DNA of 23,014 nt from positions 1 through 23,014 of the IMG/VR virus record IMGVR_UViG_3300027987_000099; one strand, 5' to 3'. The notes under the pieces were generated by a model. It did no database searches. It worked only from the letters and a program-made list of their open reading frames with translations, and was not told where the DNA came from. The DNA is from a virus. Positions 2,424 through 20,287 of the stretch are shown here, piece by piece; within the stretch, counting starts at the first letter, position 1, and each line of letters starts with the position of its first letter. A program made the translations under genes and the position numbers.

Positions 2424-4618
2424 CAGATGCTCCCCGCAATCTTGTTCAGCGAAGTGAACAGACCGCTGCTCTTACGCTGCGACAGGTTCGCCCGTTCACG
2501 GTGCTGGATCTCACCAGCGAACTGATCCTCGAACAGCTCATCGAATCGTGCCATCGCATCGACACCTTGCACCGTACCTGCCGACTGATCTTCGCCTGTC
2601 TCCCACTCCCTCGCACGAGCGGCATTCTCCTGACGGGCAGCCTGCGTCTGTGCTTCCCACTGATCCTTGTCAAGCGCAGCGAGATGATCGACGTACATCT
2701 GCAACTCTGCCGACGATGCACGCCGACCAAGCCGAGCCTCGAACGTCTGCTTCGTCGTCTGGGCAAGGGTGGCGTAATCAGGTGCGAGATAGGCCGGTGT
2801 CACGAAGTTGGCGTAAGGATTGGCGTCGTCCTCCGGGTTGTCCTCCAACCATGCCTGATACACACGGATCTCTTCTTGAAGCTGATCTTCCCACGTGTTC
2901 CCGTTGGCGTTCGCCAGCGCCATGATCTGTGTCATGGCAGTCATCGTGAACCCATCACGCTGCCCAGGGTGGAAGCCTTGTTCCGTGAGGTCGAGGAGAC
3001 CGGCGAGGGCAGCCTGTTCTTGGAACCACGAGATCTTGTCTACGCCCCACCCTGCCAGCAGCTCGTCGTAGTCACGCTGGTAGTAGCGGGGCTCGTAGGT
3101 GTCGAGTCGATCTTCACGGTACGGCTCGTTGCGGAACGCATCGGTCGGGTGCATCCCCGATCGGGGTGTCGTGACGGTCGGCACAACACCGAGGCGTGGG
3201 GGAAGCTCACCGATGACACCGCCCCGAGCCTTCCGTGCCGCATCCATGCGGGCATAGTGGGCTTCAAGCTGGTTCTCGATGTCCTCTGCGGTGAGGACAC
3301 GGTTCTCTCGCTGTGCCGTTTCGGGATCATCGAGGACTCCGGTGAATCCGAGATCCTGAGCTTCCTGCTCATCGTTCACCATGTTGGTGTTCACGGCAGG
3401 ACGCACCCACGTTCCCGTCGTAGGGTCGTAGGTGCCACGAGTACCGGCATAGGTGCGTTCAGCCGCAACCGTCTTGCCGGTGTTCAGCGGAGGCTTCCAC
3501 TGTCCATCGGTCGGGTCGTACCATTTGCGGAGAGGATGCCCAAGAGTCGTTTGCTTCGTTGGGTCATAGTCATACCCCCCATACTTGGCGTCCTGCTCCT
3601 GGTACCACTCTTCCTGCGTCACATCACCAAGCGATTGACCTGACAACTGTTGCATTGCCTGAAGCAAGGCGTATGCCATCTCGGGGTCGTACTCGCCCTT
3701 CTCGACGGCACGAGTCAGGTCAGCGGTCACGGATTCTGTTGCTGCGCTGTCGTTCTGTGCCTGAGCAATGACGTAGTTCGTCATCAGCACTCCGGCTGAA
3801 GTTGCAAACCCCGCAACACGAGCTCGCCCGATACCGGAATAGAACCCCTTGCCCAAGTCCATGAGGATCGGGGCACTCTTCGTTCCCGCCTGAACAGCAG
3901 TTTCGGTGCTCTTCAACCACCTCGCAAATCGTGGCCCCATCTTTGCCCCGCCGCCAGCCATGAATGCAATGGCAATATCAGGCCCCCAGTCGCCCAAGAA
4001 GTTGATCTTCTGTTCAGCCCTCTGCATCCCCTCGCTCTTGTTGCCGCCGTTCAACGCAGCGTCGAAGAGGGAGAGCGCACCCTTCTCCTCGTAATCCCAA
4101 TCCCCCCACGGTGGGCCGGTGAACATCCTGCCCTTGTCGAAGTCGATCTGCTTCTTCGAGACCTCAGACAGACGGTCGTTCATCCGACCGCCATAGCTGT
4201 TGTCCGAGATGATCCCGGTGTCCTCACCATTGATGCGGGGCCACCCGACAGCGTTCTCGCCCGAACCGACGAACCACTCGTAGAGCTTGTCGTTGCCGAT
4301 CAGTTTCTTACCGGCCTCGAGAGCGTCTTTGTCGTTCGCTCCCCACGCTGCGATCACGATGACATCATCAGTGATCTGAGACATATCGCCCCTGTCGAGA
4401 GCGTCGTTGAGTTGGAGCCACGAGTTGATGATCATCACGAACCGGACTTCCTCAGTCAGCTCGTACCACTTGTAGACAAACGGCTTCAGCGAATGATCGC
4501 CCCACCCAGGCCACTGTCGGTCGTATGGGTCGCCATACGGATCAGGGTTCTCCTCCTCGGTGGGAACCTGTGCCTGATCCGGTGGGAGGGTCGTTCCGGT
4601 AGTCGTTGTGTCGCTCAT
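2423..4618 (-). CDS. Large putative internal virion protein, 731 aa
   Basis: This 731-residue protein lies between the giant protein and the wall hydrolase. Its first ~40 residues are Thr/Pro/Glu-rich. Two apolar segments, at about 211-228 (WGPDIAIAFMAGGG) and 266-286 (ARVAGFATSAGVLMTNYVIA), could interact with membrane, which would suit an ejected pore or channel protein. A short imperfect repeat sits in the middle: YDPTDGQWKPPLNT at 367-380 and YDPTTGTWVRPAVNT at 397-411. The C-terminal third (about 520-700) is helical and Gln/Glu/Ala-rich, followed by a basic end. No enzymatic motif is visible. Both boundaries are TGATG stop/start overlaps. By analogy with podovirus internal core proteins, it may be ejected with the DNA. 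That role is inferred from size, composition and neighbours. Confidence 0.85.
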   Translation of the reverse strand: MSDTTTTGTTLPPDQAQVPTEEENPDPYGDPYDRQWPGWGDHSLKPFVYKWYELTEEVRFVMIINSWLQLNDALDRGDMSQITDDVIVIAAWGANDKDALEAGKKLIGNDKLYEWFVGSGENAVGWPRINGEDTGIISDNSYGGRMNDRLSEVSKKQIDFDKGRMFTGPPWGDWDYEEKGALSLFDAALNGGNKSEGMQRAEQKINFLGDWGPDIAIAFMAGGGAKMGPRFARWLKSTETAVQAGTKSAPILMDLGKGFYSGIGRARVAGFATSAGVLMTNYVIAQAQNDSAATESVTADLTRAVEKGEYDPEMAYALLQAMQQLSGQSLGDVTQEEWYQEQDAKYGGYDYDPTKQTTLGHPLRKWYDPTDGQWKPPLNTGKTVAAERTYAGTRGTYDPTTGTWVRPAVNTNMVNDEQEAQDLGFTGVLDDPETAQRENRVLTAEDIENQLEAHYARMDAARKARGGVIGELPPRLGVVPTVTTPRSGMHPTDAFRNEPYREDRLDTYEPRYYQRDYDELLAGWGVDKISWFQEQAALAGLLDLTEQGFHPGQRDGFTMTAMTQIMALANANGNTWEDQLQEEIRVYQAWLEDNPEDDANPYANFVTPAYLAPDYATLAQTTKQTFEARLGRRASSAELQMYVDHLAALDKDQWEAQTQAARQENAARAREWETGEDQSAGTVQGVDAMARFDELFEDQFAGEIQHRERANLSQRKSSGLFTSLNKIAGSI

Positions 4619-7600
4619 CAGAAATCAATCCCTGTCGGAAGCGTCGGGTACAGCTCAAGCTCTGGCGCAAACTCTTGACCGATCCATTCCCAATCCTTCG
4701 CCAAAGGGTCGATGATGCGAGTCACGATGAACGTAGCGTAATCCCTCGCATGCGGGTCGGTAAGTGATTCGATGTACGCCTCCGAATCCTCGATCAACAT
4801 CCTCATGTATTCCTTCGCCTCTGGCGACTCGGCACGCTGCCACCAGACAGGTGAGCCGGTCTGGTTCTCACGCCCCATCGAAATCGTTTCGAGGGTGCGG
4901 AACCAACGGGTGAAGGTTTCGGCTACCTGAGCAAGTGCCGGTTCGTGTTCACGGTACGCATCGTTCGCTTTCGTGCCGGGGGTGCCGATGTCCTCGATCT
5001 CCTTCAGGAGATGGTTCGTCGTCACCGACTGGCGTTCACCGACCACCGCTCCACTGTTCTCGGATTCGACAGGCGGGAACTGCGTCATGATGATCGCACG
5101 GTTGTTCCGGTGGATCCGCATGAGCTGATCCTTCTTGATCTGGTACTCGGGATCGTTCTCCCATCCCCGACCGTAGGTGAGGCGCAACTGCTCGATCTGC
5201 TTCTCCAACATGGCGTCCTGATAGCGCAGCATCTCGTAGCCCTGTGACCGCTGGATGCGTTGCATGATCGTGGCAGGGTCGTTCTTCTCACGAATCGTCG
5301 GCCCCTCGACACCATCGATCATCACCCGATCAGTGAACTGATCCTGCCATGCACGATGCGAATACACCTCTTCGCCTATCGGTACTGCAAAGCCTGCCGT
5401 GTACGGCGACACTTCCTCCAACCACGGATTCGCTGCGGCGTAGTTGACGTAATCCCATGTGGCAGGACGCTGCACAACACCGGACGACATTCCCTGCAAC
5501 ACGACAGGGTTCACCCCGTAGCGTTCCACCATGTAGAGCGCAGCTTCCGATTCGCCCCACAACTCACGAGCGTGCCGGTACTCGTTCGACATCGAGATGA
5601 GCGACAACACTTGCTGCCCGCCTGGTGCCTTCGGGTTGATGTCCTTGACGATGGTGGGCTGATACTGCGGCTGCCCCGGCATGAAGAACGAGTCGAACAG
5701 TCGAGCGATCGACAGCCAAGTTCCGGCAGTTTGGGCAACCTCCCACGCCTTCCGCATCCCCTCTGGATCCCACGACTGATAGCGAGGGTCGCCTGATGTC
5801 AGCATCGCCTCGAAGATCCTCATCTTCGTGTTGCCGTACACCTCACGGTTCGATTCCTCCGTGATGATGGCGAGCATGCGCCTGATCGGGGTCGGCATGA
5901 AGGTCGTGGCTGCGTCCATCACACTCGTAGGACGCCCCGGCTGGAAGGCATCAGCACCGCCGTAGGCCGCCCAGTTCACCAGCGAACGGAGGGCAGGCAT
6001 CTTGTCGAGGGTCGGCTGCGCCATCCGTGCCGAGAGCTGCACCAGCGGCGACATCGATGGGCCTGCTATGCCACGAGCAGTCGGGTCGATGAACATCAGC
6101 GACGACATCGGCATCTGCGAGTTGAGACCGAACGGCTGCCCGTCACCGATCGGGGCGAGCCCTGCAAGTCCAGGCCAGTTCATCACTTCCTCACCAAACT
6201 CGTTGGTGGACAAGAAGCCGGACTGACGGCCGGCAGCCATCGCTGTCTGCAAGCGGCGCACGTTCCGGTACGGCTGGGAGCCTGAGTAGCGGGGGTTCAT
6301 GATCTTCGCCCACCGTGACAGCACCTCGTACCACGCATCTCCGAACGGGAACAGAAGTCGGGAGGCGTCAGCCGTGTTCGACTTCGTAGCAAGGTCGTAG
6401 AACAGGTCTTTGGTTTCCTCGATGGCTGCGTACTTCGATCCTTGAAGGATGTTCTCAAGCTGATCGGCAAGCTGTTTCTCAGCGTCGGTTCCCTGATACG
6501 CCTTCCCAAAGACCTTGCGTGGGCCGCCCGTTTCGCCCCATCGTGCTCGGTAGTTCTCGACGTTGAAGAACCGTTGCACCGCATCAGCACGCTGTGCTTG
6601 CGGTACTTGGGAGAAGTCGTGGTCGAGGATCACCTGACGGAGCGTCGTTGCCTGATCGACTGCTTCATCGATCATGTTCTCAAGCTGGGTGAGGGTCAGG
6701 TTCTCACGCTGGAAGTTCAGATACTTGCTCGTTCCGTGGTTCTCCTGCGAGTACGTTCGCACCTTCTCATAGAGAGCATCGATCTCGTCTACGAGATGCG
6801 GGTACGTTTCGATTGCTTCATCGATGGTGCCGAAGTCATGGAGGCGGTTCTGCCACTTCTCCAACCCGACACGCCATGTGAGCGGCATTTCGGGCATCGC
6901 ACCCTTCGGTCGGATCTTCCCGATCTGTCCGGTGAAGTTCTGCCTGATCGAGTCGATCCCGACCTCGATGTTGTGGATGTCGTTGAACACCGTGTCACGG
7001 AACTTGTAGAACGCCTCATCGATCTGTGCCTGTGTGAGCGGCGCATCGAAGTCATCGATCCCCAAGATGTGATGCGTCATATCGTCTACGGAGGGGAACG
7101 GATGCCCGTAAGCATCCGTCCATGCGTACCACGCATCACCCACAACACGGTCGTAGTAGACGAACGTGAGGTGGTTGAACTCCTCCACCGACATTGGAAT
7201 TGATGGGCGCCTCGCCAGTCCAGGCAGCGGGTAGTGGTTCCACATTGCCTCGTACAGCGACCCGATGAAGTTGCGAAGGTCAGGCGATGCGTACAGCTCG
7301 GCGTAGTTGTACGACAGGATCTCACCATCGGGATGATTCGACGTGAGCCCTCGTGTGTACGCCGCAGATTGGTGTTCGATGAACTCCTGCAAGCCGGTCT
7401 CGAAGTCATTGAGGGTGGGATACCCCGCAGGAGTCTCAAGGTCTTGGAACAGCCCTCGCTTCGGCGTTCCCGGTTCGTGATCGATCACTGATTCCATGAA
7501 GGCACGGAACCGATCTTTCTCAGTTCGGGAAAGAATCTCACCGAGAGGCATTCCTGTGAACCGATCCGACTCCCTCCACGCAACGGGAACCGGCTCGAAG

Positions 7601-10600
7601 TAGGTATCGAGAAACATCGCTGCGTCACCAATGGCATGCTCTGATCGGGGCATCACGCCTTCGGAGACCAGCTTCTCGAACATATCGTGTTGGAGGACGG
7701 CAATCGGTCGGACTCCCCCTTGAGACACGACGATCTCTGCGGGGCGCCCTGACCGATGCTGATAGAGACTCCGCACCTTCTCCGCTTCAATATCAGGCAG
7801 CGAGAACTTCCTAGCGAAGTGCTCAACGAAACCGCTCTCAGTAAACGGGATGGAGGTACCGGCGTGAAAGCCCCGACCGTCCGTGTACCTCTCCATGATG
7901 TAGCCGAGTTTGCGGCGAGCATCCCAACCACCCTCACTGGCGTAGTGGCGCAGGGCATCCTCAACGTGCGGTGGTGCCGTCAGCCAGTCGATGTGGTGCT
8001 CGATCTCGTCAAGCATCAGCGTCTTGAGTTCAGACGGCGTGTGATCGAGGACGTCGGTTGCCATTCCGGTTTCTGTGTTGAACCGTGACCTAGCACGCTG
8101 TTCGATCCAGTCGAGGGCTTCGTTCAGCAACCTCGCCTGATCGTCATCAAGGACACCAAGCATGTCGCCCACCAGACGATTCTCTATCTCGATGTACGAC
8201 CGCTGCGCTACGGCGTTCCATTCGTCCTCAAGCCCCTCGATGTGGTCGAGACCCCACTTGGAGAGCGCTTCGTGCTGTTCGGCATCGCCAACGATTTCCA
8301 TGTAGGAGCGCATCGATGGCGGTAGATCACGAGGGTCGAAGATCAGGACGACGTTCTGGTGGGGCGCACCCATGCCGGTGTATCCGCTTGGGCGGGTCGC
8401 ATCCCACGAGATGCCGCCACCTGTCTTTGGCTCGAAGGCAAGCGACGGATCATCTGCCATGCGCTGCCCCAGATGGAACGCCACCCGTTCACGTTCGATC
8501 TCGTCAAGGCGGGCAAGCAACTCTGCCCGTCGAGTGTCATCGATGACACCAAAGGTGTCGGTACCTTGATCCAGCAGTTTCTGCAACATGCGTTCCTCAC
8601 CCATGAGGCGAGTGAGTTGCGTCTGGTACTTCGATGATCCGTGGAAGGTGAGCAGGTTGTTCTCCAGCACGCCTGCCTGCCCATACGCCTGAATCCCTCG
8701 CCGCTGTCCACGGCGAAGCTCCAACAAGCCGAGGTCGTTCATCACTTCCCAGAAGGCAGGCGTCGTCCACGAGCTGCCGTCACCGATTTCGACCTTCAGG
8801 TACCGTGCCGGTTCTGTGTCGTATGCCGACATCGGCGGTTCGATGATCCCCTCCGGTGTCACGTTCGCAACGGTGGCAGGATCGGGCGGTTCGAGGCTGC
8901 GGACAGGGGGCAGCTCGTCAAGGCCGAGCTCGTCAAGGGCACGCTTCACGCCAGAGTCGAAGATCTCCTTGAAGGCTGGGTTCGCTGCGGCGTAGTCATC
9001 GATGACCTTCCGTACCTCTGCGGGGGAGTAGACATACGAGATGGCGACGTTGCGTCCGAACGCCTGAGCGAAGTGGGGAGATCGGTTGAGTTTCGCTGAC
9101 GGCACGGCGTTGAACCCACGGAAGAAACCATCCATCGCCCTGTTGTAGAAGTTGGTGCCTCGTGCCTTCCTCACCAGCTCGTCCTTCGGCACCTGAACGT
9201 GGAACCCGCTCATCTCGATGCCACGGTTCTCGTAGGCGAGGCGCACCTTGTTGTCGAGCGCACGCACCTGATCGAACGTCATATCTTCGACAAACTCGAT
9301 GTCGTCAAGGGTGCCCTGGTGGATCAGTTGCCTGAAGTCGGCGTTGCCGTGATCGACCACATGGACGACTTTGCGTTGCGCCTCGAGAGCATCGATGTCG
9401 TATTTCGCTGCAACAGCAGCAGCCTGTTCAAGTTCTTTGCGGTTCAGTCGGGTGAGGGGTCGTTGCCCTGTCTTGTTCTCGATGAAGTCAGCGAGCCGCT
9501 TCTTGTTCGGGAACGCCTCTGGGCTTGTGTCGGAGAAGGCATATCTGCGCCTGCCGTCAGAACCGAACCACACGCCTTTCGGGTGGTCGGGTGTGATCTC
9601 CTTGTAGATGCCCGATCCCCCAGACATCTCTGCGATCTTCAACTCAACGACATCGATGTATTCGTTGAGGATCCGTGGGGTGGCGATCTTCTCCAGCGTG
9701 TCGCCCTTCTTGGCTTGCGATGCGACCTCACGGAGAATCTGCTTCCCTTCCTCAGTGCGGAAGTATTGGCGAGCGGCATCGGGGCCGTGCTCAGCGATGT
9801 ATCTCCCGATCCGGTCGTTGTGGATGATGAGGTAGTCACGAGTCATCCCCGCCCACCCAAGCTCAGGGTTCTGCCCGATGTTCACGACCGTCCAATCGGC
9901 TTTCGCTGCGTCGAACACGTCGCCGGTCTTGAGGTCACGGAGCATGGCTGCGCCAAGCCCGTCTTTCTGAAGCACCGCCGCAAGGGTGATGTCGTCACCC
10001 GGAAGAATGAAGTCCATGTTGTTCGTCATCATCGAGAAGTAATCCATCGGGTGACGGAACATATTCGAGTAGCCCATTGCCCCCATACGCAGATGCTCTT
10101 CAGGGAGGATGCGGAGCGCCCAACCGACACGGAACAGGGCGAAGTCACGCCACACACCGAACGCCAGATCAGCAGCCCTCATCGGCGTTGACGACTGCAA
10201 TCCGAGAGCGAGGTACGGGTACTTCTCTGTGTCCTTGACCGCTTTCCAGATGGCACGCCTCGCACCCTCGTACACCCACCGTTGACCGGACGACATGCGG
10301 CGAAGCTGCCGCACGTTCGGGATCCCGATGGTGGAGCTTGCGAACTGCGCTTCGAGCATGGCGCCGTGCTGGGTTTGGAGCACCGGCCCTTCCATGTTGG
10401 CGACGTATCGCTTCCCGTTCCACCACAACTGTCGTGCTCGACCCGTCGTCGGGTTTACGGCATAGATGTGGTTCATCTCCGTGGCGTCGCCCCACTGCTT
10501 CAGGATCTGCTCGGTCTGGAACGCAACCTCTGCCTCGTCGCCGTGGAGCCTCGCCTTCTCAACGATGGCGTCACGCAGCTCCTCGTATACCCGACGCAGC

Positions 10601-12891
10601 CCCGTCTGGGTGTCGCCCATCAGCAACACCTTCTTCTGCAAGTCATCGATCACATTCAGATCGAGACCTACGGTGTTGCCAGCGTTGGCGATTGCCAGCA
10701 GGTTCTCACGAGCGTTCCCGACTGCCAGCATGTTGTGTCCGGCTTCTGCACCTGCCCTGCGTGCGAGCCGACGAGCCGACGACACGAGCATCGCTGCGCC
10801 CCCGAACTGTGTGCTGGACTCCCAAGCATCAAGCCCTCGCCCGATCGGATCCTTGAAGCCGCCCGTCTTGGGTTTCTGCTTCGGAGCGTCAGCGTATGCC
10901 CTACGGAACATTTCGGTGATCTCGCCAACATCGGTCGATTCAGCGATGCGCCTCCAATCCTGCGGGTCGAGCCCTGGTGCGTGCTTCCGTACCTTCTCGA
11001 TGGTGTCGAACTCGTTTGCGAACCGCTCCATCAACCTCTGACCACGAGCTGTGTTCACCCACTCGAAGAACGTCTTGATGTTGACGTTCTTGCGGACGCC
11101 TTTCTTGGTGATCCCTGCGTTCTGACGCATCAGCTCCATGATCCGTGGCCCTGACCATGTGCCATCCACCATGTTGCGGAACGCCCGACCTTCGGCTGCG
11201 GTCTCCACGACCTGTTCGTAGGTCGATGACAGCGCCTCTGCCAACGATTCGATTTGGAGTTTCGCCGGTCTCCACTGATCGAGGGCATAAACGGTGCGTG
11301 CTCGTGCCTCCCGCAACGCCTTCATCTCTTCTGCCGTCTTGCCCGGAACCAGCATCTCGTCCTGCAACGCCTTGATCCGTTCCGTCAGGCGCTTCTGGAC
11401 GCTGCCGATCTCAGTCGTGTCATACACCGACACATCATCGAAGAACTCCTCGAACCCCTCCCCGACCTTCTCACGGAGGTTCCGCATGACACCGGCAGCG
11501 TTCTCGTCTGCCGTGTTGTAGAGCGTCCTGATCTCATCGGGTGCTGCATCTGAGAGGCGGCGAAGATCAACCCACTCCTGTCCCGCATCGTCAACCCAAG
11601 TTGGGTGCCACAGGTTTTGGATTTCGGCATGCACAAGCTCGTGTTCAATCGTCAGCATCAGCGATGCCTCATCGCCGCCGTGCTTCATAACAGCCCGATA
11701 CACATCATCAGGTGACAGCCCCATATCGATGAACGCCCTGTGATATACGTTCGCCGGATCCCAATCGCCTCGGGCGCCGACCCTCTTGAAGTGGCTCATC
11801 GCCTCCCTGATCGAGACCTCGATGCGGTTCAGGCCTCGATCGTTCAGCTTGTATCCCGACTCTGCAACTTGGAACGGGTCATCCATCGGGCCCTTCCTTG
11901 CCACGATCTCGGCTTCGTCCTCCAATGCCTTGACGATCCGTTGAACAGCATCTTCCGAAAGCTCACCGGCAGCGTTGCGTGCAAGCGCCTGATCGCCACC
12001 AATCAACCTCGACGTCTTGTACGCCTTCAACGCACGATCAGCCAACACATCGACAGGCTCGAACACGAGCCGTGCCACCGAATCGACCATCGCTGACGCT
12101 GTGTCATAGGCACGAGTGCCAGGAGTGGTGAAGATGATCGCTGCGCCCGCCCCCGGCGAGTACGGCACCTGAGCAACCGTGCCATCGTCAAGCGTCTTAT
12201 GGAGGTGCGTCGAACGCCACATGGCCGACGTGAGCCCCATGTTCGACACACCCTGATTCTTGATCTGCTCGATCCGTGCCTGATTGACTGCCTTCAATAG
12301 TTGCTCGTCGGGTGAACCGGCGAACTGCTTGGACTGCACCAGCTCCTTGATGCGACCCCAATAGTCAGGCCCCGGCTGGAAGTCCTCATACGTCGGGATG
12401 AACCCTTGCCCGAAGTCGGACTTGATGCCGAGCTTGTCGAGCGACGTCTGTGTGCCGAGCGCAGAGTTCAGCGACATATCGAACGCATCACCCCATCCTG
12501 CACCCTGCCCATGATTGATGAGTGTCCGTGGGATCAGGTGGATGGGTGACACGTTGTAGAGATCTTCGGCAGCGAGGAAGCCGTGACGGGTCGTGTACTT
12601 CATCCAGTTCCACGGCTGGTACCACCACGACGAGTTCTGGACAGCCTTCTCGGACTGTCGGATGGTGGCGTCGAGGAGACCCTGATCCATGCTGATGAGT
12701 CCGCTCACGGCAAGACCGGCAACGAGGTCACGAGGAACGGACGGGTACTCCATCACCAGCCGCTCGATCTTCTTCCCAATCTCAGGGTCGGCAAACTTCC
12801 TGTCGAGGATCGCTGCGGTACGGCTGAAGTCTGACGCTCCCCTGAACTGCGAATACTGAACCGTGACAGGAACGGATGTCGGTTCGGGCAT
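4618..12891 (-). CDS. Giant virion protein, 2757 aa, with HExxH metallopeptidase motif
   Basis: A single uninterrupted 8.27 kb frame encodes 2757 residues and occupies over a third of the window. The clearest motif is HELVH at residues 417-421, in the context TIEHELVHAEIQNLWHP, which matches zincin-type metallopeptidases. Further segments recall large multi-domain phage proteins: WRDFALFRVGWALRILPEEH at about 914-933, WFGSDGRRRYAFSD at 1108-1121, LTFHGSSKYQ near 1414 followed by YTGMGAPHQNVVLIFDP near 1504-1520 (possibly ADP-ribosyltransferase-like, unproven), and an LFPFGDAWYEVLSRW segment in the C-terminal third. It directly precedes the 731-residue protein and the wall hydrolase. An internal, ejected polyvalent-type protein is the best reading. 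I could not recognise virion RNA polymerase signatures. The gene is flanked at both ends by the same 11-base sequence covering its stop/start junctions. Confidence 0.88.
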   Translation of the reverse strand: MPEPTSVPVTVQYSQFRGASDFSRTAAILDRKFADPEIGKKIERLVMEYPSVPRDLVAGLAVSGLISMDQGLLDATIRQSEKAVQNSSWWYQPWNWMKYTTRHGFLAAEDLYNVSPIHLIPRTLINHGQGAGWGDAFDMSLNSALGTQTSLDKLGIKSDFGQGFIPTYEDFQPGPDYWGRIKELVQSKQFAGSPDEQLLKAVNQARIEQIKNQGVSNMGLTSAMWRSTHLHKTLDDGTVAQVPYSPGAGAAIIFTTPGTRAYDTASAMVDSVARLVFEPVDVLADRALKAYKTSRLIGGDQALARNAAGELSEDAVQRIVKALEDEAEIVARKGPMDDPFQVAESGYKLNDRGLNRIEVSIREAMSHFKRVGARGDWDPANVYHRAFIDMGLSPDDVYRAVMKHGGDEASLMLTIEHELVHAEIQNLWHPTWVDDAGQEWVDLRRLSDAAPDEIRTLYNTADENAAGVMRNLREKVGEGFEEFFDDVSVYDTTEIGSVQKRLTERIKALQDEMLVPGKTAEEMKALREARARTVYALDQWRPAKLQIESLAEALSSTYEQVVETAAEGRAFRNMVDGTWSGPRIMELMRQNAGITKKGVRKNVNIKTFFEWVNTARGQRLMERFANEFDTIEKVRKHAPGLDPQDWRRIAESTDVGEITEMFRRAYADAPKQKPKTGGFKDPIGRGLDAWESSTQFGGAAMLVSSARRLARRAGAEAGHNMLAVGNARENLLAIANAGNTVGLDLNVIDDLQKKVLLMGDTQTGLRRVYEELRDAIVEKARLHGDEAEVAFQTEQILKQWGDATEMNHIYAVNPTTGRARQLWWNGKRYVANMEGPVLQTQHGAMLEAQFASSTIGIPNVRQLRRMSSGQRWVYEGARRAIWKAVKDTEKYPYLALGLQSSTPMRAADLAFGVWRDFALFRVGWALRILPEEHLRMGAMGYSNMFRHPMDYFSMMTNNMDFILPGDDITLAAVLQKDGLGAAMLRDLKTGDVFDAAKADWTVVNIGQNPELGWAGMTRDYLIIHNDRIGRYIAEHGPDAARQYFRTEEGKQILREVASQAKKGDTLEKIATPRILNEYIDVVELKIAEMSGGSGIYKEITPDHPKGVWFGSDGRRRYAFSDTSPEAFPNKKRLADFIENKTGQRPLTRLNRKELEQAAAVAAKYDIDALEAQRKVVHVVDHGNADFRQLIHQGTLDDIEFVEDMTFDQVRALDNKVRLAYENRGIEMSGFHVQVPKDELVRKARGTNFYNRAMDGFFRGFNAVPSAKLNRSPHFAQAFGRNVAISYVYSPAEVRKVIDDYAAANPAFKEIFDSGVKRALDELGLDELPPVRSLEPPDPATVANVTPEGIIEPPMSAYDTEPARYLKVEIGDGSSWTTPAFWEVMNDLGLLELRRGQRRGIQAYGQAGVLENNLLTFHGSSKYQTQLTRLMGEERMLQKLLDQGTDTFGVIDDTRRAELLARLDEIERERVAFHLGQRMADDPSLAFEPKTGGGISWDATRPSGYTGMGAPHQNVVLIFDPRDLPPSMRSYMEIVGDAEQHEALSKWGLDHIEGLEDEWNAVAQRSYIEIENRLVGDMLGVLDDDQARLLNEALDWIEQRARSRFNTETGMATDVLDHTPSELKTLMLDEIEHHIDWLTAPPHVEDALRHYASEGGWDARRKLGYIMERYTDGRGFHAGTSIPFTESGFVEHFARKFSLPDIEAEKVRSLYQHRSGRPAEIVVSQGGVRPIAVLQHDMFEKLVSEGVMPRSEHAIGDAAMFLDTYFEPVPVAWRESDRFTGMPLGEILSRTEKDRFRAFMESVIDHEPGTPKRGLFQDLETPAGYPTLNDFETGLQEFIEHQSAAYTRGLTSNHPDGEILSYNYAELYASPDLRNFIGSLYEAMWNHYPLPGLARRPSIPMSVEEFNHLTFVYYDRVVGDAWYAWTDAYGHPFPSVDDMTHHILGIDDFDAPLTQAQIDEAFYKFRDTVFNDIHNIEVGIDSIRQNFTGQIGKIRPKGAMPEMPLTWRVGLEKWQNRLHDFGTIDEAIETYPHLVDEIDALYEKVRTYSQENHGTSKYLNFQRENLTLTQLENMIDEAVDQATTLRQVILDHDFSQVPQAQRADAVQRFFNVENYRARWGETGGPRKVFGKAYQGTDAEKQLADQLENILQGSKYAAIEETKDLFYDLATKSNTADASRLLFPFGDAWYEVLSRWAKIMNPRYSGSQPYRNVRRLQTAMAAGRQSGFLSTNEFGEEVMNWPGLAGLAPIGDGQPFGLNSQMPMSSLMFIDPTARGIAGPSMSPLVQLSARMAQPTLDKMPALRSLVNWAAYGGADAFQPGRPTSVMDAATTFMPTPIRRMLAIITEESNREVYGNTKMRIFEAMLTSGDPRYQSWDPEGMRKAWEVAQTAGTWLSIARLFDSFFMPGQPQYQPTIVKDINPKAPGGQQVLSLISMSNEYRHARELWGESEAALYMVERYGVNPVVLQGMSSGVVQRPATWDYVNYAAANPWLEEVSPYTAGFAVPIGEEVYSHRAWQDQFTDRVMIDGVEGPTIREKNDPATIMQRIQRSQGYEMLRYQDAMLEKQIEQLRLTYGRGWENDPEYQIKKDQLMRIHRNNRAIIMTQFPPVESENSGAVVGERQSVTTNHLLKEIEDIGTPGTKANDAYREHEPALAQVAETFTRWFRTLETISMGRENQTGSPVWWQRAESPEAKEYMRMLIEDSEAYIESLTDPHARDYATFIVTRIIDPLAKDWEWIGQEFAPELELYPTLPTGIDF

Positions 12892-13693: not shown

Positions 13694-15514
13694 TTATCTC
13701 TGGACGGCGACTGTCTGGACGCCTCCATCTACTGCACCCGAACCTTCCATCCGTGAGAGGACGGACTGGACGGGTGGTGGCGCACCGGACGGTACACCAA
13801 CGGGGCCGCCTTGCTGTGCAGCCATCATCTGTGCCTGCATACCCATCATCTCTTCCATCGATGGTTCCTGCTGTTCGGGTACGAAGTATTCACGCAGCAG
13901 ATCCATCTCCTTGTCGGGGTTCTCCATGATCTCGACAAGGATGCGGTCAGCGTTCGGATCCTGCTCGGACTTGGCTGCGAGGCGGCTCATCATCAGCTCC
14001 CGGTACTGCTTGCGGGTGATGCGCTCGTTGATGAGCTCCAAGTCCTCGAGACCATCGACGTTCTCTTGGAATGTCAGCATGTCGATCGCCCCTGCCGTTT
14101 CGAGCTGCAACCCGACGATGATCTTCTGGTGGTCATCGAACGTCGCCATTGCACCGAAGATGCGCCGTGTCCGGTAGTCGCCGTTGATGACGTTCTTCAC
14201 CGTGACCTCATGTGCCTTGCCACGGACGTCGAAGAACCGGCGCTTCTCGTTGCGGTACATCTCCTCAGCGAACTGCAACCGGATCCGGTCGTTGTCCTCG
14301 TATGCCTGCCGTGCGATCTTGTGGTACTCCGCCACGTTGTCATTGACGGCACCCTGCAACTCACGCATCCCCATGCCGGTCGCAAACGAGTTTGGCGACT
14401 GGCCGTCCTGCTGGACGTCGTACTGCGCCCCGATGCGGAGCTGGCGTTCGAGGCGGTCGATCTGCTGGAACGCATGGACGTAGTTGTTGCCTGACCGCTG
14501 CGGGTACACCTTCGTGCCTGGTGCGAGCTGGTTCACGGCATCCCTGCCGAACTCGTACTCGCCGGACTCCACGTCGCCGTCGATGTCCACACCTGTCAGC
14601 ACACCGTCCTCGGCAGCGATGATCCCCAGAATGTTGAGCTTGGCTTGCGCCCCCTGCAACCCGATCACATGGTGGTACTGGCTGGTGAGCTTGTCGAAGC
14701 TGTACCGCTTTGCGAACGTGAACTGGCGCACACCCGTCACGTTCGGGGTGTACGACAGAATGTATTCGGCTTCGGGGATGCACACCCACTTGCCCTCAAG
14801 GTTCTCGTACTCGATGACCTCGACACCGGACTTGACGCCCTCCCACGTTTTCTGCGTGCCGGTCGGTGCGAGGAACGAGAAACGGTTGCTGTTCTGTTCG
14901 AGGTTGCGAGTCACCCGAGCCGCTACCTCTGGGTCGGGGATGGCGTGGGCAAGCTCTTTGATCGGGATGGTGCGGCAGCGGGCGTACTCGTTCGGTTGCT
15001 GGTCGGGGCCGAGCCAGCCGGGGTAGTAGTCGAACGGGTCTTGGAGCGCCATGTGGGGGAACAGCCGCCCGTCCTCGCCACGCTTCTGTGTCAGCCCCCA
15101 CGCCACGAACGAGTAGCCGGGGAGCCACCGCCCGATCTGGGGGGTCTGCATCCCGAACTTCCCCTGCCGATCCCAATCCCGCAACATATCGATGCGGAGC
15201 TGGTGCGCCTCCATCACGGTCTCGCCCTGCGACTTCGGCGGCTTGAGTGTCGGGGTGCGCCCAACCTTCTGAGCGATGCGGGTCAGACCGGAATCCATCA
15301 GGTTCACCGCAGGGAGGTCGATACCGAACGTGTCGGAGATCTCCGCAATCGACTGCTGCATCGAAGCGCCCTTGCCGACATCCCACGCCAACAGCGAGTA
15401 GATACCGGCAGCCCCGCCGTTGAGGATGGCACGGATACGCCAACGGTCGTCGTACTGGCCTTCATGCTGATGCTTCAGGATGACAAGGCGTGAGTGAATG
15501 TCTGCGTAGTCCAT
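13694..15514 (-). CDS. Phage portal protein
   Basis: The portal forms the dodecameric ring at the capsid vertex through which DNA is packaged and ejected. This protein of about 606 residues directly follows the terminase, has the expected size, and ends in a Met/Gln/Pro-rich low-complexity tail as many portals do. Its middle region has alternating strand and long-helix content (for example QIDRLERQLRIGAQYDV and DNVAEYHKIARQAYEDNDR), consistent with a portal stem and crown. I chose the ATG at 15514 because GGAGGGG ends 6 nt upstream. The ATG at 15520 forms an ATGA overlap with the terminase stop but sits too close to that site, and a GTG at 15529 is also in frame. The assignment rests on order, length and overall character rather than a single signature motif. 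Confidence 0.85.
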   Translation of the reverse strand: MDYADIHSRLVILKHQHEGQYDDRWRIRAILNGGAAGIYSLLAWDVGKGASMQQSIAEISDTFGIDLPAVNLMDSGLTRIAQKVGRTPTLKPPKSQGETVMEAHQLRIDMLRDWDRQGKFGMQTPQIGRWLPGYSFVAWGLTQKRGEDGRLFPHMALQDPFDYYPGWLGPDQQPNEYARCRTIPIKELAHAIPDPEVAARVTRNLEQNSNRFSFLAPTGTQKTWEGVKSGVEVIEYENLEGKWVCIPEAEYILSYTPNVTGVRQFTFAKRYSFDKLTSQYHHVIGLQGAQAKLNILGIIAAEDGVLTGVDIDGDVESGEYEFGRDAVNQLAPGTKVYPQRSGNNYVHAFQQIDRLERQLRIGAQYDVQQDGQSPNSFATGMGMRELQGAVNDNVAEYHKIARQAYEDNDRIRLQFAEEMYRNEKRRFFDVRGKAHEVTVKNVINGDYRTRRIFGAMATFDDHQKIIVGLQLETAGAIDMLTFQENVDGLEDLELINERITRKQYRELMMSRLAAKSEQDPNADRILVEIMENPDKEMDLLREYFVPEQQEPSMEEMMGMQAQMMAAQQGGPVGVPSGAPPPVQSVLSRMEGSGAVDGGVQTVAVQR

Positions 15515-15516
15515 CC

Positions 15517-17523
15517 TCATCCCCTCCACGGAACCGACCTGCCGGTGAGCCTAGACACCTTCGGGTACGACTTCTGGTAGTTGTCACGAGCTTTGTGCTG
15601 GGGCGGCATGTGTTCCTTCTGCAACCTGCGCTCCATCTTTCGGATCTCATACGTCGGGAACCACGACGCCATCAGGATGTCGGACTTCACCGCACGGTTG
15701 TGCGACGTCGCTTCCTCCGTGAAGGCAAGCATCTGCTCGACGTACATATCGACCTTCGCCACCGCCTCCTCGTCGCCATACGGCAAGTCGATCAGGTTCG
15801 CCTCGTACAGCCGGTTCATCGACCCCACGCCGTACACCGGATCGACCTTGTTGATCCCGGTACGGTGCGGCGTCAACGTCACATCTTCCTGCTTCGCCCA
15901 CCGCACCAGATCCTCATCATCGAGGATCGCCTGCTGGAAGGCGTTGACCTCCACCACCCAATGACGGCACCCGTACAGGTCGAGCCACTTCTTCATCAAG
16001 TCGTTCGCCTTCTGGATACCGCCACCGAGCGAGTTGTCCAGATCGACCATCCACCGCTGCACACGGATCACGGTGCGCCGATCCGTGATCGACTCGTCCT
16101 TCCGCATCCGCAACGCCCACAGGAACGCCGCCTGGTACCCCGTCGATGAAGGGTCGAGCCCTGCCACCAGCGAGAACCCCGATGGGATCCCCGACAGCCC
16201 GATCGCCCTCGACGGGTTCCGAGCCGCCATGATCGCCTTCTTGTTGAACACCGCCATGCCCTCACCGAGCGGATTGTTCTGATACACCATCTCGAACAGC
16301 TTTGCGTTGTTCCGAGCCTCAGCGCCCCGCTTCTTCGTCATCAACCATCGGTACGTCCGCAACGCAGGGAACAACATGCACGCCTTGTGCAGCTTCTCGT
16401 TGTACGGGTCGAGCGGACAGTCAGGGTCGTGCGCCGAGTTCACGATGTTGTAGAAGTTCGGATCCTTCAGGTTCGAGTTGTAGATGTCATCGAGATGCTG
16501 GCGAGACCCGATCACCACAAGCCCCGTATGTTCCTCCTTGCGGGAGTCGAGGTCGGTACCGAACCAGTCCTTCGTGGACTGCCGCAGCTTCGGTTGCGCC
16601 ACCGACGCCTTGTTCTCGATGTCGTCGCACACGATCAGGTCGGCGTTCCGTGACAGCAACTGGCCGCCCCTGCCCGTGGCGAGCATCGTGGAACCCACCA
16701 GCGTCACGGTGCGTGCCGCAACCGTGAACGACTTGGACGACCAATCCGACCCTCGCAGCGACGTCGGCTCAAACGACCGACCAGGCCCCAACACCGCCTC
16801 GATCATCTCCGTCGTGTCCGCAAGGTACGTCTTGACCGCCACCAGCATGTCACCGGCAATGTCGTCGTTCGGCCCCACCCACAAGATGCGGATGTTCGGA
16901 TTCCGGCAGATCAGCCACACACAGAAGTGAACCAGCAGCTCCGACTTTCCGTGACGGGGAGGCGACAGAATCTGGAGGTAGCCGCCCGAAGCGATCGTCG
17001 CCAACGTCGCCGTGATCCACTCGTAATGGAAGTCCTCACGCATGAACGGCTTCCCATCAGACGTAGCGAACCACCGCCGCTCAAACGCCATGAACCGCTC
17101 AGTCGCCTCAATCGCCCACCGAGCACACGCCTCCGCATCCTCCTTAGCAGGCATCTCGAGATCAAGAGCAAGCTCCCACGCCGTAGTCGGATCCATCTCC
17201 CAATCCCCGACCTTCGCAAACTCCTCAACCGCCTTACGCCACTCCCGATAATCCTTCGTCACACGAGCAACCGACACCTGCGCCGCAGCCGCAGCAACCT
17301 CCAACGTGTTCGTACCCGCAGCGATCTGGTGATACAACGGCAACAGCAACTTCCGCATCGGCGTCACCGCCTCGCCACGCCCCGACTCCACCTCCGTCCG
17401 GGCATACATCGTCCGCTTACGGGAAGCCTGCTCCATATGCGTCTTGGAGCAATACTTCGCAGACGACGTGCGACCAACAATCTTGCCCCCACACAGCAGA
17501 CACAGCCGATCAACGACGGCCAC
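15517..17523 (-). CDS. terL: Terminase large subunit with N-terminal zinc-ribbon/HTH extension
   Basis: The packaging motor couples ATP hydrolysis to DNA translocation and cuts concatemers. The ATPase half shows Walker A SPPRHGKS at 187-194 and a Walker B-like strand DLIVCDD at 295-301. The RNase H-like nuclease half has its acidic residues at D457 (VAGLDPSS), E525 (HWVVEVNAF) and D615 (KSDILMASW). At 668 residues it is longer than many large terminases. The extra N-terminal ~150 residues carry a putative zinc site (C8, C11, C25, H29, in CLLCGG and YCSKTH) and a helix-turn-helix-like stretch at about 63-97 (LYHQIAAGTNTLEVAAAAAQ...). No separate small terminase is visible, so this extension could supply DNA recognition. 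The start is GTG at 17523, inside the end of the upstream small gene. Confidence is very high for the family, moderate for the extension's role. Confidence 0.96.
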   Translation of the reverse strand: MAVVDRLCLLCGGKIVGRTSSAKYCSKTHMEQASRKRTMYARTEVESGRGEAVTPMRKLLLPLYHQIAAGTNTLEVAAAAAQVSVARVTKDYREWRKAVEEFAKVGDWEMDPTTAWELALDLEMPAKEDAEACARWAIEATERFMAFERRWFATSDGKPFMREDFHYEWITATLATIASGGYLQILSPPRHGKSELLVHFCVWLICRNPNIRILWVGPNDDIAGDMLVAVKTYLADTTEMIEAVLGPGRSFEPTSLRGSDWSSKSFTVAARTVTLVGSTMLATGRGGQLLSRNADLIVCDDIENKASVAQPKLRQSTKDWFGTDLDSRKEEHTGLVVIGSRQHLDDIYNSNLKDPNFYNIVNSAHDPDCPLDPYNEKLHKACMLFPALRTYRWLMTKKRGAEARNNAKLFEMVYQNNPLGEGMAVFNKKAIMAARNPSRAIGLSGIPSGFSLVAGLDPSSTGYQAAFLWALRMRKDESITDRRTVIRVQRWMVDLDNSLGGGIQKANDLMKKWLDLYGCRHWVVEVNAFQQAILDDEDLVRWAKQEDVTLTPHRTGINKVDPVYGVGSMNRLYEANLIDLPYGDEEAVAKVDMYVEQMLAFTEEATSHNRAVKSDILMASWFPTYEIRKMERRLQKEHMPPQHKARDNYQKSYPKVSRLTGRSVPWRG

Positions 17524-17662
17524 TCGTCACCACCACTTCGACATCAACCAGCCGATACGAACACTGGCACTCAACCGCCCGATACCGAACCTCATGCGAA
17601 GCATCAAGAGCGAGCTGAACCCACTCCAAAGCCCTCTCAACATCTCCGCACACATCGCACAT
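17510..17662 (-). CDS. Small zinc-ribbon-like protein, 50 aa
   Basis: This 50-residue protein lies just upstream of the terminase and overlaps its GTG start by 14 nt, so the two are probably cotranslated. Two cysteine pairs, C2/C5 (MCDVCG) and C32/C34 (VECQCSYR), separated by a helix, suggest a single zinc-binding knuckle. I chose the ATG at 17662 because GAGG sits 6 nt upstream. An in-frame ATG at 17683 would add seven residues but has no ribosome site. The sequence reads as natural protein (charged, mixed composition). Function unknown. It is the first gene of the leftward operon, a position where small terminases often lie, but it is too short to be one. Confidence 0.6.
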   Translation of the reverse strand: MCDVCGDVERALEWVQLALDASHEVRYRAVECQCSYRLVDVEVVVTSGRR

Positions 17663-17739
17663 GAGAATCCTCGTAGCCGCCATGCGCCACAGCGTATCAT
17701 GACAACACCCGGCACAACGCCCATCAGGAAGGACACCCA
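17663..17739. promoter_or_regulatory. Candidate divergent promoter region
   Basis: This 77 bp gap separates the leftward packaging/virion operon from a rightward gene, so promoters for both directions could lie here. On the plus strand TATCAT (17695-17700) resembles a -10 box about 40 nt before the ATG at 17740. On the minus strand the overlapping TACGCT (17696-17691) fits a TAnnnT -10 and would give a short leader to the ATG at 17662. No convincing -35 box is visible for either, which is not unusual for actinobacterial promoters. This is a weak, position-driven call. Confidence 0.25.
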
Positions 17740-18066
17740 ATGTCAGTCGCCATCCACCCATCAGCAGCCGAAGGAGCCAACGGCAACTCGGCCCCCATCC
17801 AATCACCACCCAACGCCATCGGAATCGGCATCGACATCTCAGCCCAATCAGGCACCACACCCACCATCGACTTCGAAGTGGAATGGTCGCCAGACGGCGT
17901 GAACTTCGGATCAGCCGAAACCCCCGACACCTTCACCCAAATCGGCGCAGCCACCCCCACCGTCGCCAAACGCTTCACCGTCAAAGCCCCCTGGTACCGA
18001 CTCGTATGGACACTCGGCGGCACCACCCCCAACTACACCTTCGCCGCCTACGCAACCCACGGATAA
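17740..18066 (+). CDS. Small beta-rich putative phage structural protein, 108 aa
   Basis: This 108-residue protein is transcribed divergently from the packaging operon. GGAAGG lies about 7 nt before the ATG. The pattern of alternating hydrophobic residues with SGTTPTIDFEVEWSPDGVNF, then TVAKRFTVKAPWYRLVWTLG and GTTPNYTFAAYATHG, recalls a small beta-sandwich protein family common in phage structural clusters, where SGT-P, W/T-SPDG and a C-terminal GGT-P--TF recur. The precise role in those phages is, to my knowledge, not settled (decoration or minor structural). The coding strand is strikingly C-rich with C-ending codons (27 C against 11 G in 17761-17820), unlike the G-rich coding strands of the genes to its right. 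A hairpin follows 3 nt after the TAA. Confidence 0.8.
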   Translation: MSVAIHPSAAEGANGNSAPIQSPPNAIGIGIDISAQSGTTPTIDFEVEWSPDGVNFGSAETPDTFTQIGAATPTVAKRFTVKAPWYRLVWTLGGTTPNYTFAAYATHG

Positions 18067-18068
18067 CA

Positions 18069-18098
18069 AGAGAGGGAGCCCCAAAGGACTCCCTCTCT
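18069..18098 (+). terminator. Hairpin after the 108-aa gene
   Basis: A perfect 10 bp stem, AGAGAGGGAG (18069-18078) with CTCCCTCTCT (18089-18098), encloses a 10 nt loop and begins 3 nt after the stop at 18066. There is no U-tract on the plus side. On the minus side a short T-containing stretch follows. Position and stability suggest a transcription end or a 3'-end stabiliser. Termination without a U-run is an inference. Confidence 0.6.
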
Positions 18099-18221
18099 CA
18101 ATGACAGTTGCGAAGCTCGAAGGACTCAGCTACCGTCTAGGTCACTACCACCTACTCGGAAGGTTACAACAACCACCCACCCACCGCAACACCCAGAGCA
18201 GAAGGCTCCCCCCGACTCCTT

Positions 18222-18313
18222 GCGGAGATGTAGCGCAGTCGGCCAACGAGCAAGATCGCAAACAGATCGCCCCTCATAACCCGGAGGGCAACTGTGCCTT
18301 CAGAACCCACCCC
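18222..18313 (+). other. tRNA-fMet-like relic, not a functional tRNA
   Basis: Three tRNA-like pieces occur in the right order: TAGCGCAGTCGG (18231-18242) like a D-arm, CTCATAACCCGGAGG (18273-18287), which differs at one base from the anticodon loop and 3' stem of initiator tRNA-Met as I know it (CAT anticodon), and TTCAGAA (18299-18305) like a T-loop. The stems do not hold: the 5' side of the anticodon stem is CCC where GGG is needed, the acceptor ends do not pair, and spacing is about 15 nt too long, including an AGATCGC direct repeat at 18253-18259 and 18264-18270. A decayed tRNA or chance resemblance are both possible. Confidence 0.2.
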
Positions 18314-18338
18314 TTGTTTCGAGGCGCACTTCCGATTT

Positions 18339-18353
18339 TGTACCTTACGTACA
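18339..18353. promoter_or_regulatory. Small inverted repeat, possible operator
   Basis: TGTAC (18339-18343) and GTACA (18349-18353) form an inverted repeat with a 5 nt spacer (CTTAC) in an AT-richer island about 20 nt before a TTGACA at 18374-18379. The layout could be a protein-binding site next to a promoter, but no full promoter could be built around it. Confidence 0.2.
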
Positions 18354-18523
18354 CATATTCAGACCCCCTCAGGTTGACATCCCCCGTATCTGCGGATTGG
18401 TGAGGTTCGAGGTGGAGAATCCCCGATTTCCTGCGGTCTCCCCAGAGTCGCCGTGGCTTCAGCGGGGCGGCGGTGGGCTATATGCCCATTGCTGCGCCGG
18501 TGGGCGACGGTGGTGTTGGGGTG

Positions 18524-18985
18524 TCAGCCGCTGCGCCGCAGGTATAGGGGGCGACTCGTGGCGCACCCGTAGCCTGCGGGGTGGCGGTGTTCGTTGGGGT
18601 AGAACGCAAGGTCGCCGTCGAGCCGTGCTGCTTTGCGGACTGCAAGGGTGGCGGGGCGGGTGGCGAGCGGAGCGATGCGAGCCTCCTGCCAGCCGTGCGG
18701 TGTGGGTCTCGATGCCGGTCGTCAATGGGTGTGGTGCTCATCTCATCTCCGTGGTGGGGGGTGTCGCTGCGTTCGCCTCCTTCCTCAATCGCTGCCCGAC
18801 GGCACCGCCAGTCGACCGTGACGGGCGCCCTGCCCGGAGCGGGGGACATGGCGGGGGTGTCAGGGCGTGGCTGTGCTTGCATACTCGATGGGCGTGACAG
18901 CCTCTCACGGTTCGTGGACTTGCCGAGCGTGCCGATCGCACTAGGTCGGCAAAGAGGTGTCGGTGAGGATCCTTGCGGTGGTCAC
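18524..18985 (-). pseudogene. Frameshifted mirror copy of the 160-aa Cys-rich gene
   Basis: Read on the minus strand, this stretch aligns along its length with the intact gene at 19145-19627. It includes a matching GTG start (18985-18983) behind GGGAGAG, but that frame hits a TAG after 14 codons. Recognisable pieces then appear in different frames: AVGQRLRKEANA (intact gene AVEQRRKEANA), DEMSTT, TGIETHT (intact TGFEIHT), and GWQEARIAPLAT...LDGDLAFYPNE...AGYG (intact GWQEFVVRPLAT...FDGGTFLGFYRNE...AGFG), ending at a TGA at 18526-18524. At least three frame changes are needed, so it is not a working gene. Survival of the C-terminal part as one open frame suggests decay is incomplete. Confidence 0.75.
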
Positions 18986-19144
18986 GGCTCTCCCTCCGCA
19001 TCGAGTCCTATGTGCCACACAGGATACCACACGACCCCGATGGCTCTTGATGCCGGACACGCCCAGGCGTGGACGGTGAGAGAGGTGAGGGGATCGTGTG
19101 GTTTTTCATCCTGTATGGCACGACTCGATACGAAGGGAGAACTC

Positions 19145-19627
19145 GTGACCACTTGCAAGCACCTCATCGACACGCCGACCTGCACGATCTGCACACACGG
19201 CAAGTCCTACGATCCGTGGAGGCTGTACCCGCCCGTCGATTATGTGGCGCACAACCTCGACCTGACACCGCCTCGCCCTGTCTACCCGTCCGATCAGGGC
19301 TGCCCGTCACAGGCCGACTGGGATGCCGTCGAGCAGCGGAGGAAGGAGGCAAACGCTGACTGCGAGCTTTGTGGTTTGTTGGATGAGATGAGCACCACCG
19401 GCATTGATGTTTTGACCGGCTTCGAGATCCACACATGCTTTGATGGCTGGCAGGAGTTCGTGGTTCGTCCGCTCGCCACCCAGTATCCCGAGCCGAGGGT
19501 TGTTGGGCGTCCGGCGTGGGCAAAGCAGCACGACTTCGACGGCGGCACCTTTCTGGGGTTCTACCGCAACGAACTGACTTCGCTGGCAGGCTTCGGGTAC
19601 GACCCCGAGTTCGCCTCTATCCACTAG
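19145..19627 (+). CDS. Cysteine-rich hypothetical phage protein, 160 aa
   Basis: The chosen start is GTG at 19145, with GGGAG 5 nt upstream. The frame is open much further upstream, but that part has no ribosome site, is Gly/Arg/Ser-rich nonsense, and lies over the inverted pseudogene. The 160-residue product has possible metal-binding groups near its N-terminus (C4, then C13/C16 in TCTICTHGK) and in the middle (C73/C76 in DCELCG), a conserved-looking centre (MSTTGIDVLTGFEIHTCFDG) and an aromatic C-terminal part (GTFLGFYRNELTSLAGFGYD). I do not recognise the family. The mirror copy next door preserves the same motifs, which supports this being a real gene that was once duplicated. A strong hairpin follows its stop. 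Confidence 0.72.
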   Translation: MTTCKHLIDTPTCTICTHGKSYDPWRLYPPVDYVAHNLDLTPPRPVYPSDQGCPSQADWDAVEQRRKEANADCELCGLLDEMSTTGIDVLTGFEIHTCFDGWQEFVVRPLATQYPEPRVVGRPAWAKQHDFDGGTFLGFYRNELTSLAGFGYDPEFASIH

Positions 19628-19645
19628 GCGTAGCGCACCGGCTGA

Positions 19646-19689
19646 CACGCCCTCTGTCCTGTCGCCCACCGGCGGCAGGCGGGGGCGTG
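19646..19689 (+). terminator. Two-tier hairpin after the 160-aa gene
   Basis: The outer stem CACGCCC (19646-19652) pairs with GGGCGTG (19683-19689), and the inner stem CCTGTCGCC (19658-19666) pairs with GGCGGCAGG (19671-19679, one G-T pair) around a 4 nt loop. It starts 18 nt after the stop codon. No U-tract follows. A part of it (GTCGCCCACCGGCG) is preserved exactly in the inverted copy. Confidence 0.55.
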
Positions 19690-19788
19690 GCTGTCGGTGT
19701 GCCGCCCCGCTGGTGAGGTGGGGTCGTGTGGTCGCCGCTTTGGTGGGTGTGGCTACGACCAGGCGGTGTCGCTGAACCGTGGCGCACA

Positions 19789-19833
19789 GGTCAGCACGCT
19801 GATGCCCCCGACAGGGGGCAGGCGTTGCTGACC
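19789..19833 (+). repeat. Long imperfect hairpin
   Basis: GGTCAGCA (19789-19796) pairs with TGCTGACC (19826-19833), CGC (19797-19799) with GCG (19822-19824), and TGCCCCC (19803-19809) with GGGGGCA (19814-19820), around a GACA loop. In total about 18 base pairs form, with small bulges. It lies in gene-free sequence and does not immediately follow a stop codon. Confidence 0.6.
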
Positions 19834-19902
19834 GCAGCCGAGGTTCAGTCACCGCCTGATCGGGGCAGGTTCCCGACGCTCATGGGCAGGGCTGTCCGTC
19901 AT

Positions 19903-19920
19903 CCTCACGCTGCCGTGAGG
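19903..19920 (+). repeat. Short perfect hairpin
   Basis: CCTCACG (19903-19909) and CGTGAGG (19914-19920) form a 7 bp stem with a CTGC loop, inside the structured gene-free region. Confidence 0.5.
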
Positions 19921-19977
19921 CATCCACCTCCCGTCACGGAGCGCTTAGCCCTCTTGCCGTGGCAGATCCGGGCGTCA

Positions 19978-20013
19978 GTGCTCTCGTCACCGCCGAACGG
20001 CGGGGATGAGCAC
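19978..20013 (+). repeat. Imperfect hairpin
   Basis: The outer stem GTGCTC (19978-19983) pairs with GAGCAC (20008-20013), and the inner stem CCGCC (19990-19994) pairs with GGCGG (19999-20003) around GAAC, separated by an internal loop. It lies in gene-free sequence. Confidence 0.45.
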
Positions 20014-20032
20014 GGACGCACGGTCTTGCTGC

Positions 20033-20053
20033 GTTCGCACCCCGACTGCGAAC
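20033..20053 (+). repeat. Short perfect hairpin with 7 nt loop
   Basis: GTTCGCA (20033-20039) and TGCGAAC (20047-20053) form a 7 bp stem around a 7 nt loop (CCCCGAC). An AGCG/CGCT pair follows directly. The loop size is tRNA-arm-like, but no tRNA can be built here. Confidence 0.45.
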
Positions 20054-20189
20054 AGCGGGCTCATCGCTGGTGCTTGGTGCGTGACCTTGATGCAGGCTTG
20101 AAGCTCCGACTGTTGTTGCCGGACACGCCCGCTCTCTGCGTCGGCGCCTTCAGGTTGCACCTGCTTTGGACTGATGGCACCGTCCTGTC

Positions 20190-20276
20190 TGTGCCTCATC
20201 GGGCTACTGCCGGAACCATGGCAGCCCCCCTCACCAGTGAGGAGGCTGCCAGAACCCGGCGCAGCCATGAGGCACA
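20190..20276 (+). promoter_or_regulatory. 87-nt stem-loop abutting a ribosome binding site
   Basis: Nested stems form one long imperfect hairpin: TGTGCCTCAT (20190-20199) with ATGAGGCACA (20267-20276), GGCT (20202-20205) with AGCC (20263-20266), GCCGG (20209-20213) with CCGGC (20256-20260), GGCAGCC (20220-20226) with GGCTGCC (20244-20250), and CCTCA (20229-20233) with TGAGG (20238-20242). The outer arm ends one base before the AGGAGG (20278-20283) that serves the gene at 20288. This suggests a leader that controls translation or messenger stability, or a terminator/attenuator ahead of the gene. The structure is seen; its role is inferred. Confidence 0.6.
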
Positions 20277-20287
20277 CAGGAGGTGCC

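Follow-up and report, generated by a model that had tools for sequence, protein, structure and literature searches.

A gene and its decayed mirror copy in an unclassified tailed phage, best read as an old inverted duplication

A 23-kb piece of an unclassified tailed phage (virus record IMGVR_UViG_3300027987_000099; the whole 23,014-nt stretch that was analysed is called the window) carries a small gene next to a decayed mirror image of itself. The reading that we favour, at a probability of roughly 0.78, is that a 0.6-kb unit was duplicated in inverted, head-to-head orientation, that the right copy stayed a gene and the left eroded, and that the arrangement persists because the arms have diverged. 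An earlier note on this DNA, drawn from the letters alone, had proposed an old inversion-duplication with one decayed copy. The proposal is supported by the intact ORF of the right copy, by the dead left copy and by the same decay, with zero indels, in a second strain (contig L003).

To compare the two arms, positions 18460-19064 were reverse complemented and globally aligned with 19065-19712, with 200 dinucleotide shuffles as controls. The alignment scored +299; the shuffles averaged -292 (s.d. 17) and the highest of the 200 reached -217.5, so that z is about 35. A blastn search of this stretch, with the window as subject, returned 18495-19674 as a match to its own reverse complement (E = 1e-110). 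The arms are inverted copies with about 80-82% identity, and the tally of 465-475 identities, 102-116 mismatches and 39-49 gap events varies with the gap costs. This is the alignment by which the earlier note proposed to judge its claim that both strands carry versions of one unit, and the excess over shuffled controls upholds that claim. The note had also seen matching blocks reaching both outer ends, and the arms do close there on an exact 12-nt match (Table 1), past which no homology was found in the flanks. A target-site duplication was likewise not found at the outer ends, the flanks GCCGTGGCTT and GTGAGGTGGG having no abutting direct repeat. We rejected a mobile element with terminal inverted repeats, given this lack of a target duplication and of a transposase (the 160-aa protein of the right copy was placed in no Pfam or PHROG family). 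A short perfect hairpin (TGGGC-TATAT-GCCCA, 18473-18487) stands at the outer end of the left arm; the right arm lacks a counterpart.

The arms had further been described as meeting at a small palindrome. The palindrome is present (CACGCC-CA-GGCGTG, 14 nt with 6-bp arms, at 19058-19071), but it lies inside a central spacer of 51 nt whose halves, the 6-bp palindrome arms apart, match no better than chance, 37% of shuffles equalling them, so that the data do not link the palindrome to the duplication or show the arms meeting there. The motif GGGGTCGTGTGGT is found in both leaders (19090-19102 and 19026-19038) and a third time just past the right arm (19720-19732); at least three such matches arise by chance in 12% of shuffles. 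Its presence at 19720 prompted us to consider a third unit, in direct orientation, at 19713-20287. This candidate was dismissed, as it ranked 104 and 18 of 552 genome windows and as the best matches to its 5′ block, promising in shuffles, fell in coding DNA at other places in the genome.

Table 1. Coordinates of the inverted pair and of neighbouring features in the window.
Feature	Positions	Strand	Basis or remark
Left arm (relic), mirror of the leader/RBS/gene/3′ unit	18492-19038	-	Best local alignment (with the right arm), blastn
Right arm, with leader, RBS, gene and 3′ region matching those of the left arm	19090-19678	+	Best local alignment (with the left arm), blastn
Left arm outer end	18460-18471	-	Exact match to 19701-19712
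Right arm outer end, GCCGCCCCGCTG	19701-19712	+	Exact 12-nt match to 18460-18471
Central spacer, 51 nt, no detectable duplication	19039-19089	.	Shuffle test
Right copy, intact GTG-started ORF, 160 codons/160 aa	19145-19627	+	Translation, codon usage
3′ region of right copy	19628-19702	+	Imperfect nested hairpin, 19633-19652 with 19683-19702, 80%
Terminase	15517-17523	-	PHROG 38, E = 6e-55
2757-aa ORF, probably tape measure	4618-12891	-	

The right copy is an intact coding copy, open over its 160 codons and phage-like in its codon usage. A ribosome-binding site (AAGGGAG) lies upstream of the GTG at 19145, and the frame ends with a TAG at 19625-19627. On a codon-usage score trained on the structural genes of the window, the ORF, whose GC3 is 0.78, reaches +0.14 bit per codon, and the other five frames lie between -0.20 and -0.81. 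No T-run terminator was found in the 3′ region. The 160-aa protein has Cys motifs (C4, C13-x2-C16 and C73-x2-C76). No Pfam family was assigned to it, the sole match being Fer4_18 below threshold (E = 0.013), and no homologues were found in phages, plasmids, PDB or PHROGs, nor in IMG/VR and GTDB genomes, where the pattern-seeded searches cover close relatives only. Its single-sequence AlphaFold model (pLDDT 34) is uninformative. As the protein is without detectable relatives, one-copy relatives could not be found either, and the assignment of the right copy as ancestral rests on its intact ORF.

In the left copy, the minus-strand GTG at 18985 opens 14 codons, VTTARILTDTSLPT, before a stop, and the codon score of the arm is negative in all six frames and in every 120-nt window. 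A significant match to an adjacent intact gene is joined to a disrupted frame and an absent coding signal, as in a duplicate pseudogene. The earlier note was right that the arms have diverged, but the single frameshift that it gave to one copy falls short of the 39-49 indels and several in-frame stops seen there. Blocks are missing from the left arm 2.3 to 2.5 times as often as from the right. By codon position, mismatches number 18/142, 29/141 and 19/141. Since the third position is not enriched, the two copies did not diverge as a pair of working genes, and the left one seems to have been free of coding constraint as it decayed. The same counts weigh on another origin, in which the left arm would stem from a diverged paralogue that entered from another phage in inverted orientation and later died, with no local duplication. 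Tailed phages are mosaics and the arms are about 20% different, as such an origin would allow. However, separate life as genes would have left the third-position excess that is lacking among the mismatches, the homology takes in the leader and the 3′ region up to the common 12-nt end, and no relative of the gene turned up in any collection searched, all of which makes this origin unlikely.

With the right arm taken as ancestor, the left arm has, on the + strand, gained 6-8 A and lost 33-39, and gained 46-53 G and lost 14-18, the commonest changes being C-to-G and A-to-G. Simulated independent substitutions and indels reproduce the identity of the arms, their gap counts and their run lengths. 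The idea that template switching had homogenised the arms in patches was discarded, as the run lengths fit these independent simulated mutations. Indels per substitution come to about 0.34-0.48; differences between the arms are often clustered, so event counts vary with the alignment, and the cleanly isolated ones amount to only about 25 substitutions and 23 indels. For comparison, the bacterial mutation-accumulation rates reported in PMC5833318 and PMC8717266 give computed ratios of 0.14 for Teredinibacter and 0.35 for Acidobacterium, respectively. The high indel share makes average neutral decay a slightly awkward fit. If the palindrome as such were the target of selection or of an unusual mutational process, with indels and pair-breaking changes favoured as disarming the inverted repeat, this would account both for this share and for the strongly directional changes (A and C lost, G gained on the + strand); we regard it as improbable.

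The second strain is represented by L003 (IMGVR_UViG_3300027985_000245, 4005 bases), which matches 15019-19023 of the window at 99.4%, with 24 SNPs and zero indels. Searches for relatives through the terminase, the 611-aa protein, the 20288 gene, the 21093 gene and the 731-aa protein found this contig alone. It has the left arm minus the innermost 15 bases, in the same position beside the terminase and indel for indel, and since the decayed arm is found in two strains the decay is not a sequencing error. Polarised against the right arm, private left-arm changes are seen in each strain (in the window 18531 is derived, in L003 18518 and 18801). SNPs affect 5/564 nt of the left arm against 0/936 nt of adjacent DNA (Fisher p = 0.007), a weak difference given their patchiness. 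Indeed, 19 SNPs lie in 15035-16197, none in 16198-18517 and then 5 in the left arm, a distribution that suggests recombination between strains. L003 ends at 19023, 41 nt before the midpoint, and the junction (19024-19089) is covered by a single metagenome contig, as would be the case if the assembler or chimeric reads had produced the inverted order or the central join. Yet fold-back chimeras yield near-identical arms, not arms 80% alike with directional changes, L003 independently places the left arm beside the terminase without an indel, and both the longest match between the arms (17 bp) and the arms of the palindrome (6 bp) are short for an assembly k-mer. We hold an artefact to be very improbable.

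The pair sits in a divergent region, with the minus-strand structural block on one side and plus-strand genes on the other. Structural genes, including the terminase, are read leftward and rightward genes start from about 20288. The closest named relatives of the terminase are those of Streptomyces phages, at ~26% identity across two thirds of its length, and the 2757-aa ORF, if it is a tape measure, implies a very long tail. Cumulative GC skew reaches its minimum at 18001-18500, where minus-strand structural genes give way to plus-strand genes, which marks a possible replication origin or merely an effect of gene orientation. A plus-strand ORF of 108 aa (17740-18066), directed away from the terminase, weakly resembles the C-terminal portion of a major tail protein of phages (PHROG 9522, E = 9e-5); the DNA around it is strongly C- and A-rich, and a hairpin follows it. 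Between the right gene and the next, 19713-20287 are 575 nt of GC-rich DNA with no clear coding signal, a long gap for a phage.

This location is one of the points in favour of mirror arms kept for a function, as a large hairpin or cruciform or as an antisense read-through RNA, with a part in replication, in packaging or in the regulation of the right gene: the locus lies between the structural block, near the terminase, and the plus-strand genes, and near the GC-skew minimum. A + strand transcript of the left arm would moreover be about 80% antisense to the right gene. With a longest exact match of only 17 bp the arms are far from a perfect palindrome, yet a single strand can fold over the whole inner 600 nt (z = -20.8). 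Such folding is nevertheless expected of any decayed inverted duplicate, about 40 indels and the C-to-G changes break pairs instead of preserving them, no Rfam family was matched, and the left arm is still changing, as far as the SNP difference between strains can be trusted. A function of this kind is thus quite improbable, more so than a foreign paralogue. The composite element whose arms serve replication or structure, offered as a second possibility in the earlier note, finds no positive support, as pairing is not kept and there is no Rfam match, no target-site duplication and no relative. Evolution as a hairpin RNA that preserves wobble pairs was rejected as well, C to G, the commonest change, being one that breaks pairs.

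Under the inverted duplication that we favour, a unit comprising leader, ribosome site, small gene and 3′ region would have been copied in inverted orientation within the divergent intergenic region, with some 51 nt separating the two copies. We infer that the copy was probably made while the genome replicated, short inverted repeats being the sites of fold-back (snap-back) or template-switch synthesis. The right copy would have been kept as a gene, and the left one would have been released from coding constraint when it arose or shortly afterwards, to be eroded by substitutions and many small deletions (about 2.5 per insertion) and to move in composition, through the loss of A and gain of G on the + strand, toward the neighbouring non-coding DNA. 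The arrangement may have persisted because the arms, which now share no exact match longer than 17 bp, had become too unlike to act as a perfect palindrome; the stabilisation by decay that the earlier note suggested is thus plausible.

A snap-back origin at short interrupted inverted repeats is the published model for tandem inversion duplication (TID; Kugelberg et al. 2010, as presented in PMC4689423). In the terms of that account, the present locus resembles a TID in its head-to-head inverted copies, its short (51-nt) spacer, its replicating genome and the short interrupted inverted repeat at its centre. It differs in that a TID gives three copies (direct, inverse, direct) whereas two are detectable here, no third copy in direct orientation being found left of the left arm and 19713-20287 being unexceptional among the 552 genome windows. 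The inner ends, too, are not homologous through the centre: the junction has its 6-bp-arm palindrome, yet the inner sequence flanking it is not homologous. Duplicate pseudogenes of bacteria and phages are alike in having one intact copy and another with stops, frameshifts, an excess of deletions and no coding signal, but the relic described here is inverted and adjacent, not tandem or dispersed, and comparatively rich in indels. The long inverted repeats of Nematomorpha mitochondria (PMC6649704) also hold coding DNA; they are perfect and coding in both arms, whereas the phage arms are 80% alike and one of them is dead. In the literature searched (open papers), no phage case of a gene beside its decayed mirror copy was found.

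The locus is best read as an inverted gene duplication of which one arm has decayed, an arrangement uncommon in phage that would have arisen by an ordinary mechanism and constitutes no new kind of system. Beyond this, the evidence so far shows nothing out of the ordinary: a gene of no known function and its pseudogene. The locus is a clear example from nature of how an inverted gene duplication can last in a compact phage genome through the decay of one arm, and if a series of strains were found, the natural disarming of a large palindrome could be observed, including whether indels bring it about faster than the neutral expectation.
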